Assembly (NCBI RefSeq): GCF_024643285.1
Contig: NZ_JAMSLW010000006.1
Span: 248,001-312,000, forward strand
Direction: 5' to 3'
DNA: 64,000 bases
Source: Parapedobacter lycopersici
Lineage (GTDB): Bacteria; Bacteroidota; Bacteroidia; Sphingobacteriales; Sphingobacteriaceae
Part shown: positions 53,929 to 59,144 of the stretch, piece after piece
How positions within the stretch are numbered: the first letter of the stretch is position 1
How the letters are laid out: each line of letters opens with the position of its first letter
Notes under the pieces: model-generated
Databases searched by the model: none
Seen by the model: the letters and a program-made list of their open reading frames with translations, nothing else
Told to the model about the DNA's origin: nothing
Made by a program: the position numbers and the translations under genes

Positions 53929-56718
53929 ATGGACTATAATCACCGGGCAATAGAGCAGAAGTGGCAAAAATTTTGGGCCGATAACCAGACATTCAAAGCA
54001 AGCAATACTTCCACGAAACCAAAATACTACGTGCTGGACATGTTTCCCTATCCATCAGGGGCAGGCTTGCATGTGGGCCATCCCCTGGGATATATTGCCT
54101 CGGATATATTTGCCCGGTATAAGCGGGTCAAGGGCTTCAACGTGCTGCATCCCATGGGGTACGATTCCTTTGGATTGCCAGCCGAACAGTATGCTATCCA
54201 GACCGGGCAGCACCCCGCCATTACCACGGCAGCGAATATCAGCCGGTATCGCGAGCAGCTTGATAACATCGGCCTTTCGTTCGACTGGAGCCGTGAGGTG
54301 CGTACGAGCGACCCGGAATATTACCGGTGGACACAATGGATCTTTATGCAGCTGTTTGACGCCTGGTATAACAAGGCATCGGACAGGGCAGAACCCATCC
54401 GCAGCCTGATCACCCATTTTGAAACCCGGGGGAGTTCGGGCGTGCTTGCCGTATCGGATGAGGATACCGCCGCATTTACGGCGGCGGAATGGGCAGGTTT
54501 CAGTGATGCCGAAAAACAGCGGGAGCTGCTCAAATACCGCCTGGCCTACCTGCGTGAAAGCACCGTGAACTGGTGTGCGGCGTTAGGTACCGTGCTGGCC
54601 AATGACGAGGTGATCAACGGGGTATCCGAACGGGGGGGCTATCCCGTGGAACAGAAGAAAATGATGCAGTGGAGCATGCGCATCACGGCCTATGCCGAGC
54701 GCTTGCTTACCGGACTGGAAACAGTCGACTGGCCGGAGCCGCTGGTGGAGATGCAGCGGAACTGGATCGGGAAAAGCATTGGCGCCAGTGTCAGGTTTGC
54801 CGTTCCGTCGCTTGCGCCGGACGTGGCGATCGAAGTATTTACTACCCGGGTGGATACCATCTACGGGGTAAATTGCCTGGTGCTGGCCCCGGAGCACGAC
54901 CTGGTGTCGCAGCTGACGACCGCAGAACAGCAGGCTGAGGTAGAAGCCTACATTGCCCATACAGGCAAGAAATCGGAACGCGACCGGATGGCGGACGTGA
55001 AGACCGTTTCGGGTGCATTCACCGGAAGCTATGCCGAGCATCCGTTAACTGGAAAAGAGATCCCCATCTGGATTGCCGATTACGTGCTGGCCGGCTACGG
55101 TACGGGAGCCGTGATGGCGGTACCTTCGGGCGACCAGCGCGACTACCTGTTTTCCATGCACTTCGGCCTGTCGATCATCCCCATTTCGGATGCCCAGCAG
55201 CTCGACGGGCAGGCCGACCCCACAAAAGCCGGCCGGTATATTAATTCCGACATCATTAACGGCCTTACCTATCACGAGGCGGTTGACGTATTGATCAAAC
55301 AACTGGAAGCCACGGGTGCCGGGGAAGCGACCATCAACTACCGGATGCGTGACGCGATTTTCGGTCGGCAGCGGTATTGGGGGGAGCCCGTGCCGGTATA
55401 CTTTAAAGACGGATTTCCGCAACTGATCGAAGCAAGCGAGCTGCCGCTGGTGCTACCCGAGATTGACAAATATCTGCCCACGGAAAGCGGCGAGCCGCCG
55501 CTCGGCCGGGCGGGCGACTGGAAATACCGGGGACAGTTCGATTACGAACTGAGCACCATGCCGGGCTGGGCCGGCTCAAGCTGGTATTGGTACCGGTATA
55601 TGGATGCGCACAACAGCAATGCGCTTGTTTCACCCGAAGCGGTGAACTACTGGCAGGCAGTCGACCTGTATATCGGTGGTTCCGAACACGCAACCGGTCA
55701 CCTGCTGTACAGCCGTTTCTGGAATAAATTCTTAAAAGACCTCGGGTACGTACCTGAAGAGGAGCCGTTTAAAAAACTCATCAACCAGGGCATGATCCAG
55801 GGGCGGAGCAGTTTTGTTTACCGCGTGCTCGATACGGAGGGAAGGGGCACCAATACGTTTGTATCCTACGGATTGAAAGAACAGTACACCACCGTGCCGT
55901 TGCACGTTGATGTCAATATCGTAAGCAACGATGTACTCGATATCGAAAAGTTCCGGCAGTTCCGGCCGGATTTTGCCAATGCGGAATTTATCCTCGAAAA
56001 CGGAAAATATAATTGCGGGCATGAAGTAGAGAAGATGTCGAAATCCAAATACAATGTGGTGAACCCGGACGATATTATCGAACAATACGGTGCCGATACA
56101 CTGCGGATGTATGAAATGTTCCTGGGCCCGCTGGAGCAGAGCAAGCCCTGGAACACCAACGGCATCGAAGGAGTATATAAGTTCCTGCGCAAGCTATGGA
56201 AGCTGTTCCACGACGCGGAGGGCAATTTTTCGGTCAGCCACGGGGAGCCGGACCGGGCCGAGTTGAAGGCCCTGCACAAAATCATCAAAAAGGTAGCGGA
56301 AGATATCGAGCGGTTTTCGTTCAATACGTCTGTTTCATCTTTCATGATCTGCGTAAACGAACTGACTGACCTGAAATGTAATAAGGCGGCGATATTGCAG
56401 GAACTATGCATTGTGCTGTCGCCTTACGCACCCCACATCACCGAAGAATTGTGGGCGTTGCTGGGTAACACGCCGGGGACATTGTCTGAAGCGGCATATC
56501 CGGAATTTAATCCGGATTACCTGGTGGAAAGTGAATTTTCCTATCCCATTTCCGTAAACGGAAAGATGCGGATGAACCTTTCCCTGCCACTGAGTTTGGA
56601 AACGGGGGAAATTGAGCAGGCGGTACTGGCAAATCCGGATGTGCAGCGCTATCTGGACGGAAAACCCGTACGCAAAGTGATCGTGGTGAAAGGCCGGATT
56701 GTGAATGTGGTGGTGTAG
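53929..56718 (+). CDS. leuS: Leucine--tRNA ligase
   Basis: 929 residues, class I synthetase. HIGH-type motif HVGH in [16 protein letters not shown] near residue 47, a large CP1 editing domain in the middle, and the KMSKS motif in [16 protein letters not shown] near residue 702. The catalytic core includes [23 protein letters not shown]. The C-terminus [55 protein letters not shown] is the usual LeuRS tail. The frame ends 302 bp before the next gene, which holds the repeat element. Confidence 0.97.
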
Positions 56719-56755
56719 GCACGGGCCAGGCGTACAGGGAATTGTCCGATAGTTC

Positions 56756-56990
56756 TTCGAGGCGTGTTCGACTGCTCTTCGAGGGCTGTTCGAGTCCGCT
56801 TCGGGACTTCTTCGACCCTTGTTCGGGGCGGCTTCGACTCCGCTTCGAGTGCGCTTCGGGGCTGCTCGGCACGCAATGCGTTGCGCTCCGAAGGCCTTCG
56901 AAGGATTCCCGAAACCACGCCGACGGAATCCCGAACGATTGTCGAAGCAGACTGGATAAAACTCCGGTGCGGCGCCGAAGCACACCCGGA
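56756..56990. repeat. Two opposed 11-bp-period TTCG/CGAA arrays around a hairpin
   Basis: On the plus strand TTCG starts at 56756, 56767, 56778, 56789, 56800, 56811, 56822, 56833, 56844 and 56855, exactly 11 bp apart; units read TTCG-R-N4-K-S. A central hairpin, CGCAA-TGCG-TTGCG (56872-56885), is centred on 56878.5. To its right CGAA or CG-type cores start at 56899, 56910, 56921 (CGAC), 56932, 56943, 56965 (CGGT), 56976 and 56987 (CGGA), again at multiples of 11. The TTCG and CGAA cores mirror each other about 56878.5. The intervening bases vary and pair only weakly. It fills the gap between leuS and the S9 peptidase gene. Function unknown. Confidence 0.9.
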
Positions 56991-57020
56991 AGCGGAATAG
57001 CCAATAAAAACAATACGATA

Positions 57021-59144
57021 ATGATGAAAAACATGTTTTCGTTGGGCATTTGCCTATCCTTATTTCTTGCAGTCCCGGCAGCCGCCCAAACCAAACGGCT
57101 CGACCTGGACCAGGCCTGGGGCATCAAACGTTCGCTGACTAAACCGATCAACACCATTGAAGGGTGGGCGGATGCCCGGCATTACATCGAATACGATACA
57201 CAGGCGCGACAGCTGTATGCGGTAGACAGCAAGACCGGGCAACGCCGGACTTACACGCCGCCGCCCAGCAGCGATACAGAAGTCTATATCCAGGATAAGG
57301 ATATCTATATCCGGGAGGGCGGCCAAGCTCCCCGGAGGCTGACACAGTCGCCCGCTGAAGAAGAAAAAAATCCCACGCTCTCGCCGGACAACCGGTATGT
57401 GGCATTTACCCGGAATAATGACCTTTATGCCATCAGCGTGCCGGATGGCCGCGAAATCCGCTACACCAGCGATGCCACGGACGTCATCTACAACGGATGG
57501 GCATCGTGGGTATATTATGAAGAGATCCTGGGCCGTCCGACGCATTATAAGGCCTTTTGGTGGTCGCCAGACAGCAAATCGTTAGCCTTTATGCGTTTCG
57601 ATGATACCGAGGTGCCCATGTTCCCGATCTTTGGCTCAAAGGGCCAACATGGTTATGTGGAACAGACACGCTACCCCAAGGCAGGTGATCCCAACCCAAA
57701 GGTACGGGTCGGGTTTGTGCCGGTGGAGGGCGGGGAAACCGTGTGGGCCGCGTTCAACGAGAACGACGACCAGTATTTCGGCCAGCCGTACTGGAGCTAC
57801 GACAGCAACTCACTGATGGTGCAATGGATGAACCGCGACCAGACAAACCTTAAATTTTATGCGATAGATCCCGTATCGGGCAGCAAAAAGGAGATATATG
57901 ACGAGAAACAGGAAGCCTGGATTGACCTGAGCCACGCCGAACGCATTACCTACCTCAAAGACAACAAACATTATATCTTAAAAAGCGATAAGACCGGCTG
58001 GGCCCATTATTACCTGTACACGCTGGATGGTACGTTGGTTAATCCGATTACTGCGGGCCCGTGGCAGGTATCCGCATTGCAGCTGGTGGATGAGCAGAAC
58101 CGGGTGATCTACTTTACTGCCCGGAAAGAACATTCGACAACGGAAGACCTGTACCGCGTTAATTACGATGGCAGCGGTCTGCGGCGGCTGACATTCGGCA
58201 ATTACACCCATGAAGTGCATGTGGCACCCGACGGCGCACATTTTATTACCACCTATTCCAATGTGGAAACGCCGACGAAAATTGCCCTGCTTGATAACCG
58301 CGGCAAACTGATCCGCGAACTGGCCGACAGCCGGGCGGATGATTTTTCAGATTACCGCTATGGCCGGACTGAAATGATTACCATCCCTACGCCGGATGGC
58401 TATGCGTTGCCGGCTACCATTACATGGCCGACGGACTTTGACGAAACCAAACCCCATCCGGTTATCTTCAGCATCTATGGCGGTCCAGACGCGGGAACGG
58501 TAAAAAACACCTGGAAAGGAACCGCCAACCAGCACTGGGCCAACGAGGGTATTGTCCAGATCGCCGTGGATCACCGGGCGTCCGGTCATTTCGGGAAGCA
58601 GGGCGTTGCACTCATGCACCGCAACCTGGGTAAATGGGAAATGGAAGATTACATCACGGCAGCCAAATGGCTAAAGAGCAAACCCTGGGTGGCCAAAGAT
58701 AAGCTGTTGATTACCGGACACAGTTACGGTGGGTACATTACCTGCCTGGCGTTAACCAAAGGGGCGGATTACTTTGATTACGGCATCGCCGGCGCGCCGG
58801 TGACCAGCTGGGAGCTCTACGATACGCATTACACCGAACGGTTCATGGATACCCCGCAGGATAACCCCGAAGGCTATAAGAACGGCTCAGTATTGACCTA
58901 CATTGATCAGTATAAAGGCGTATTACGCATTATGCACGGCGATATGGACGACAATGTGCATATGCAGAACACGATTCAGCTGATTGACGAACTGCAGAAC
59001 GCCGGAAAGCATTTTGAACTGATGATCTATCCCGGGGGGAGACACGGCTGGACGGGCCCCAAAGTGGTGCACGACCGGATGGAGCGTATCCGGTTTTACT
59101 ATCGGTACCTGTTGGAGAAGCCGGTTCCGGAAGCACTCAGATGA
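57021..59144 (+). CDS. DPP-IV-like S9 family peptidase
   Basis: 707 residues from the ATG at 57021, which starts a signal peptide (MMKNMFSLGICLSLFLAVPAAAQT); reading further upstream would only translate the repeat element. An N-terminal propeller (DPP4_N) region includes NGWASWVYYEEILGRPTHYKAFWWSPDSKSLAFMRFDD, whose double Glu is the DPP-IV N-terminus-binding motif. The alpha/beta hydrolase domain has the triad in GHSYGGYITC (Ser near 569), HGDMDDNVH (Asp near 641) and YPGGRHGWTGP (His near 675). It would remove dipeptides, often Xaa-Pro, from peptides in the periplasm. Promoter not evident; the leader contains the repeat. Confidence 0.93.
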   Translation: MMKNMFSLGICLSLFLAVPAAAQTKRLDLDQAWGIKRSLTKPINTIEGWADARHYIEYDTQARQLYAVDSKTGQRRTYTPPPSSDTEVYIQDKDIYIREGGQAPRRLTQSPAEEEKNPTLSPDNRYVAFTRNNDLYAISVPDGREIRYTSDATDVIYNGWASWVYYEEILGRPTHYKAFWWSPDSKSLAFMRFDDTEVPMFPIFGSKGQHGYVEQTRYPKAGDPNPKVRVGFVPVEGGETVWAAFNENDDQYFGQPYWSYDSNSLMVQWMNRDQTNLKFYAIDPVSGSKKEIYDEKQEAWIDLSHAERITYLKDNKHYILKSDKTGWAHYYLYTLDGTLVNPITAGPWQVSALQLVDEQNRVIYFTARKEHSTTEDLYRVNYDGSGLRRLTFGNYTHEVHVAPDGAHFITTYSNVETPTKIALLDNRGKLIRELADSRADDFSDYRYGRTEMITIPTPDGYALPATITWPTDFDETKPHPVIFSIYGGPDAGTVKNTWKGTANQHWANEGIVQIAVDHRASGHFGKQGVALMHRNLGKWEMEDYITAAKWLKSKPWVAKDKLLITGHSYGGYITCLALTKGADYFDYGIAGAPVTSWELYDTHYTERFMDTPQDNPEGYKNGSVLTYIDQYKGVLRIMHGDMDDNVHMQNTIQLIDELQNAGKHFELMIYPGGRHGWTGPKVVHDRMERIRFYYRYLLEKPVPEALR

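Follow-up and report, generated by a model that had tools for sequence, protein, structure and literature searches.

The window analyzed here, which is the whole stretch of 64,000 nucleotides of Parapedobacter lycopersici DNA, carries a mirror-symmetric array in the gap between two plus-strand genes. The upstream neighbor, lying outside the element, is leuS encoding leucine--tRNA ligase (positions 53929 to 56718; TIGR00396, E 2.5e-281) and the downstream neighbor is a DPP-IV/S9 peptidase gene (57021 to 59144).

Architecture of the array

The left arm (56756 to 56865, plus strand) consists of ten 11-bp units each opening with TTCG, the cores lying at 56756, 56767 and so on to 56855 with a step that is always 11 bp. 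The center (56866 to 56892, assigned to no strand) is a near-palindrome, TCGG-N3-GCAA-NNNN-TTGC-N3-CCGA, with its axis at 56878.5. The right arm (56889 to 56990, minus strand) has CGAA-type cores in mirror register and is more degenerate than the left arm. Its CGAA, CGAC, CGGA or CGGT cores are found at 56889, 56899, 56910, 56921, 56932, 56943, 56965, 56976, and 56987, and the slot at 56954 is missing. The core positions bear out the original prediction of ten TTCG cores of exact 11-bp period plus mirrored CG-type cores, and the predicted symmetry axis at 56878.5 agrees with the sequence of the center, GCAA-TGCG-TTGC.

The possibility that shuffled sequences might show an equal period was put aside by shuffling the 235 bp 2000 times with dinucleotide content preserved; the longest 11-bp TTCG/CGAA run was then 3 (seen once) versus 10 in the real sequence. 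When any 4-mer was allowed, the maximal 11-bp run in 300 shuffles of the 235 bp was again 3.

The array had also been said to create misleading long reading frames and it does so on both strands. On the minus strand, false frames 193 and 216 aa long span the array (window positions 56404 to 57157), whereas on the plus strand the S9 frame runs back to a TTG at 56742 (stretch 56742 to 57020). We rejected this N-terminal extension of the S9 protein to 56742 as an artifact of the stop-poor array. Annotators should note that such arrays generate long false reading frames.

The array belongs to a dispersed family

The array is one copy of a dispersed mirror-symmetric family. BLAST with the array gave further loci in the same genome at 68–85% identity (L002–L021), and hence the array is not unique to this site, as the original prediction had allowed it might be. 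The pattern of four successive TTCG-N7 units matched the genome 97 times in forward and 78 times in reverse orientation versus 0 and 2 matches for the reversed-pattern control. A sequence model built on 19 copies (threshold E ≤ 0.01) gave 71 matches, which were merged by hand into a family of 24 loci. A fixed register set on CAA-NNNN-TTGC fits 19 of the 22 loci laid out (L001–L021 and L025), the other three lacking this center, and a MAFFT alignment of the copies required only two gap columns in 134. By eye, the copies also differ by whole units: one unit of L002 is missing from L005 and L006.

Conservation within the family is concentrated in the cores. In the left arm, pairwise identity among the 19 copies is 0.99 for cores and 0.58 for spacers, and the right-arm values are 0.76 and 0.44. 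These figures uphold the earlier view that core and period are kept as spacers vary. TTCG is present in 186 of 209 left-arm slots; in those 186 units a purine always fills position 5, and C or G fills positions 6 and 11 in 183 units each. The unit consensus across the family is TTCG-R-S-N-S-B-K-S with an information content of 12.9 bits per unit. Because the cores stay while the spacers drift, selection seems to act on the sites.

The family is intergenic in this genome. The flanking genes are in tandem, convergent, and divergent order with no bias toward gene ends. The neighbors include leuS, dnaK, rpsA, an ileS-like gene, rimP, and the gene of ribosomal protein L3, although we claim no enrichment of translation or chaperone genes.

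Two loci of the same genome (L433 at 89.2 kb of contig C12 and L434 at 347.4 kb of C19) seem by eye to form a second subfamily in which a center of TTCGGGTTTTTCCCGAA replaces GCAA-NNNN-TTGC. Some arrays (L002, L003, L062, L067, and L071) share a flank, located at about 1700–1900 in L002 and L003, which contains hairpins having stem differences that look compensatory. This shared flank also carries the motif GCGAGGCCC, which occurs in relatives as well.

Orthologous sites and distribution among relatives

In all four same-genus species that are syntenic at the leuS–S9 gap the array is absent. The distance from the leuS stop codon to the candidate S9 start is 108 bp in G002, 28 bp in G003, 144 or 171 bp in G005, and 15 or 39 bp in G007; in the window's genome it is about 302 bp. 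In the remaining four relatives the gene downstream of leuS is not S9. At dnaK the upstream neighbor is common to seven of the eight relatives, and the TTCG pairs spaced at 11 bp upstream of dnaK number 0 in all eight versus 9 in the window's genome. The dnaK upstream gap is ~188–324 bp in six of the seven syntenic relatives versus 482 bp here. The rpsA site, where only a single TTCG pair was seen in two relatives, says little because the upstream neighbor is mostly not common to the relatives. Judged from these sequences, gain of the array in the lineage of the window's genome would be the simpler reading of the empty leuS–S9 and dnaK sites. Presence/absence polymorphism at orthologous sites, the behavior looked for in a miniature inverted-repeat transposable element (MITE), was found at both.

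Upstream of dnaK in G001 (locus L529), a mirrored 11-bp array of GGTAA/TTACC cores occupies the place of the TTCG array. In 400 kb sampled from a single contig of G001, no 4-mer formed a lag-11 run of five or more units.

Within the taxonomic family, the pattern of four TTCG-N7 units was found in 52 of 201 genomes. The reversed-pattern control gave mostly 0 matches across the 201, with a maximum of 4 plus 2 in G102, a genome itself lacking a true match. The strict mirrored pattern was present in 5 of 395 genomes of the phylum with 0 control matches.

Arrays lie upstream of DUF6266 genes in relatives

When the ORFs near array loci were clustered, DUF6266 (PF19781) recurred; at L211, for example, the array lies some 700 bp upstream of DUF6266 with another short frame in between. 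DUF6266 is encoded in 88 of the 201 family genomes, including 47 of the 52 array-positive genomes versus 41 of the 149 array-negative genomes. Within-genus permutation gave a mean overlap of 35.3, and 47 was reached in 0 of 20,000 permutations.

We then approached the arrays from the protein side. In 30 loci (L402–L431), the best DUF6266 match from each of 30 genomes, lag-11 periodicity (p ≤ 0.02) was detected upstream of DUF6266 in 20 and downstream in 1; the values for lag 10 were 19 and 0. Another 59 DUF6266 loci were taken in score order, with the copy of the window's genome, two G093 rows, and L501, which extended beyond the end of its contig, excluded. Of the resulting 89 genes, all chosen by protein, 66 had a lag-11 array in the 700 bp before the gene, and 4 had one at −1480 to −780. 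Lags of 8, 9, 10, 12, 13, and 14 were found within 700 bp in 8, 6, 43, 2, 0, and 9 loci, respectively, and thus lag 11 exceeds lags 8, 9, 12, 13, and 14, as befits direct repeats spaced by roughly one turn of the helix. TTCG/CGAA pairs near DUF6266 numbered 172 at lag 11 versus 4, 7, 15, 6, 0, and 2 at those same six lags. Perfect TTCG or CGAA pairs spaced by 11 bp were present near the gene in 43 and far from it in 3 of the 89 loci, and TTCG lay to the left of CGAA in 19 of the 20 loci showing both. The 11-bp cores vary by locus (TTCG, TTACC, TCCG, TTACG, and others).

A second array having a 10-bp period is present in 43 of the 89 loci (L402–L431 and L468–L527). It lies nearer DUF6266 (median −181 versus −350 for the 11-bp array) and its cores are also locus-specific, among them GTCAAA, GGCAAA, TGCCAA, and TATCA.

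The single DUF6266 gene of the window's genome, which is outside the 89, has 0 TTCG/CGAA pairs at 11 bp in its 700 bp upstream. A search for DUF6266-cassette genes at 30 loci plus three stretches of this genome returned only that known copy.

At some DUF6266 loci (L402–L431, L435, and L436) holin-like, CHAP endolysin-like, and lipoprotein genes follow. In the 1.5 kb downstream of the 30 loci there is a CHAP-like frame in 12 and, by our reading, a spanin-like lipoprotein in 4. On two 4.3-kb IMG/VR contigs DUF6266 is next to a PF05105 holin-like gene, and tblastn with DUF6266 against phage and plasmid collections gave no match. From sequence resemblance, the genes after DUF6266 in these loci look like a lysis module that recurs several times within a genome. 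The DUF6266 structure model (mean pLDDT 52.7) is unreliable over residues 1–111, and the remainder resembles fibronectin-III-like chains, a likeness that implies no function. Among open PMC papers, we found none on DUF6266.

An HTH_17 gene often precedes the array

A gene encoding a protein like HTH_17, which we take to be InterPro IPR041657, lies within 1480 bp upstream in 46 of the 89 DUF6266 loci and is on the same strand in 44. In all 37 loci having both a same-strand HTH gene and a lag-11 array, the array is between the HTH stop codon and DUF6266, at a median of 78 bp from the stop (arrays were scanned in the last 700 bp before DUF6266). However, no HTH gene was seen within 1480 bp upstream in 27 of the 66 array loci, which counts against a role for HTH_17.

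The recognition-helix motif Y[YF]R was present in all 10 HTH loci that have eight or more TTCG pairs versus 1 of the 40 others, and in 6 of 6 versus 1 of 40 when the four loci found via their own arrays were left out. Note that the motif was picked after inspection and that some of these loci are close relatives. The match of Y[YF]R to TTCG also holds within single genomes: in G197 (ten pairs at L518, one at L506), in G215 (ten at L493, one at L526), and in G005 (TTCG at L363 and L382, TTACC at L519). Identity to the HTH_17 of the window's genome correlates with the number of TTCG pairs (Spearman 0.46, n = 50, p = 0.0008; 0.34, n = 46, p = 0.02). In a broader test, HTH proteins from loci sharing a core were not significantly more alike than those from loci with unlike cores (identity 0.274 versus 0.260; 1090 of 5000 permutations).

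The window's genome encodes one HTH_17 protein at E ≤ 0.001 and its helix, STYFR, carries Y[YF]R. The gene, at ~379.3 kb of contig C16, lies ~2.1 kb before DUF6266, and the whole interval contains further frames but just one CGAA pair. It is on another contig than the window copy, which has no adjoining HTH gene.

How the arrays may work

We slightly favor the view that the array is an operator track for a winged-helix HTH_17 protein that polymerizes head to tail. Each 11-bp unit would be one protein site, and the units would tile one face of the helix. The small, excisionase-like HTH_17 protein would bind the units head to tail at about one protomer per turn, and two opposed filaments would meet at the palindromic center, where they could bend the DNA or occlude it by neighboring promoters. 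In the bacterial family, the arrays usually stand upstream of DUF6266, often in the order HTH_17-array-DUF6266 and sometimes ahead of lysis-like genes, and the window's genome has the TTCG version at 24 loci and one HTH_17 gene left. An HTH_17 filament is the most economical reading because the RDF-type proteins, RdfS, and BldC bind at about one turn per molecule. Against it stand the missing 11-bp array between HTH_17 and DUF6266 in this genome, the lack of cassette genes at its array loci searched, the negative comparison of same-core with different-core HTH proteins, and the rival 10-bp array. The original suggestion of repeated protein binding on one helix face gains from the core/spacer contrast, the helical phase, the lack of complementarity between the arms, and the HTH_17 linkage; that HTH_17 occupies the sites is what we infer from these.

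The alternative half of that suggestion, a stacked RNA fold, did not find support. The two arms might be transcribed as a hairpin serving as an RNA structure, a terminator, or a processing site, and the mirror-symmetric cores do pair at 90% around a CGCAA/TTGCG center. Yet the spacers show no covariation between arms: those of the same copy match at 0.458 versus 0.469 for arms of different copies, and the observed figure was equaled or exceeded in 885 of 1000 permutations. As the arm spacers of one copy match no better than those of different copies, the array behaves as a row of duplex sites rather than a hairpin. The fold z-scores are weak (−1.66 and −1.26), an Rfam search at the array gave no match, and gene ends are not favored, the neighbors being in tandem, convergent, and divergent order. 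We find the hairpin scarcely credible. A partition-like site of the parC type, or a nucleoid-organizing site used across the chromosome, would account for the exact helical phase and the 24 spread-out loci, and plasmid R1 parC is indeed bound via 11-bp direct repeats (PMC9426499). However, no ParM or ParR was present among the 39 neighbor proteins scanned at 22 loci of this genome (31 with a Pfam family, 8 without) and such arrays are scarce or absent in several close relatives, making this very improbable.

Two other readings deserve more weight, although we consider both unlikely. A non-autonomous mobile element (a MITE or foldback element) with arms of repeated recombinase-binding sites and only incidental effects on genes has a modest chance of being correct. 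It fits the 24 dispersed loci, the syntenic relatives lacking the array at leuS–S9 and dnaK, the inverted arms, and the intergenic siting with neighbors in all orientations, and it is compatible with protein binding. It leaves unexplained the fixed HTH_17-array-DUF6266 position in relatives, and no transposase partner was identified in a genome-wide search in which RAYT was the sole transposase family sought. RAYT (PF01797) was absent from the window's genome, and the control search was positive in 5 of 14 genomes. A REP/RAYT element was rejected, the genome having no PF01797 Y1 transposase. We are more doubtful that HTH_17 targets the promoter-proximal 10-bp array and that another protein binds the 11-bp arrays. 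The lag-10 signal at 43 of the 89 DUF6266 loci is indeed closer to the gene than the 11-bp array, HTH presence associates with lag 10 (Fisher p 0.006, versus 0.028 for lag 11), and the DUF6266 of the window's genome has by eye TGCCA repeats at 10 bp and no 11-bp array. In contrast, the Y[YF]R loci agree by eye in their TTCG 11-bp core and differ in their 10-bp core, which is TATCA-like in L498, L510, and L493 and TGCCAA in L502, L363, L382, L383, and L359.

A broader proposal that extends the HTH_17 operator track is one we advance tentatively, expecting it to be wrong somewhat more readily than right. The Bacteroidota would have a class of paired tracks for protein filaments, each a mirrored 11-bp array whose core can be exchanged (TTCG, TTACC, TCCG, and others) and each served by an HTH_17 winged-helix protein of its own within an HTH_17-array-DUF6266 cassette trailed by lysis-like genes. 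Arrays might leave the cassette for intergenic sites, and in the window's species a single HTH_17 might coat about 24 loci, regulating genes or organizing the nucleoid across the genome. If these readings are true, this is an undescribed repeat class of helically phased protein sites in which the core changes among paralogous loci and a candidate reader protein is encoded alongside, and it offers natural matched pairs for learning how polymerizing small winged-helix proteins read DNA. DUF6266, which is multi-copy in many of these genomes, would gain a first handle, as would the lysis-like genes that trail it.

Comparison with known systems

We found no described family of such 11-bp arrays in Rfam or in open PMC papers, in agreement with the earlier statement that no named family was known. 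Apl, like other RDFs, binds cooperatively and head to tail to direct repeats spaced by one helix turn (10–11 bp; PMC7498355), RdfS, which is assigned to IPR041657, covers ~10 bp per molecule, and BldC filaments have one turn per molecule (PMC11963761). The array resembles the operators of phage 186 Apl, lambda Xis, RdfS, and BldC in having direct repeats 10–11 bp apart (five and seven for Apl; PMC7498355, PMC11963761). Cooperative head-to-tail binding to RDF-type operators would have its counterpart here in the small HTH gene near the DUF6266 loci, the putative binder, and from this analogy we infer that the array may work like those operators. Unlike the RDF-type operators, the array family has ~20 units in two mirrored arms, occupies 24 loci, and has a core that varies among paralogous loci.

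Plasmid R1 parC likewise has 11-bp direct repeats, ten by the title of a reference cited there, and these are bound by a polymer-forming complex (PMC9426499). Unlike the array, parC is plasmid-borne beside parM and parR, neither of which was found among the scanned array neighbors. The nearest repeat families seen are BrickBuilt and PINSR, which we compared by their published descriptions. The BrickBuilt MITE of Porphyromonas gingivalis is also from the Bacteroidota, has a similar copy number of ~20 (19 for BrickBuilt), and is intergenic with tandem sub-units and flanking inverted ends, but its tandem unit is an identical 23-nt sequence and the text consulted reports no mirrored helical-phase arms (PMC4596501). 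PINSR of Prevotella intermedia, another Bacteroidota element, is 188 bp, intergenic, non-coding, and lineage-specific like the array, but it is present in 177 and 184 copies and according to its authors lacks terminal inverted repeats (PMC4755523). Taken against these systems, the repeat class is likely new and its working principle likely one already known.
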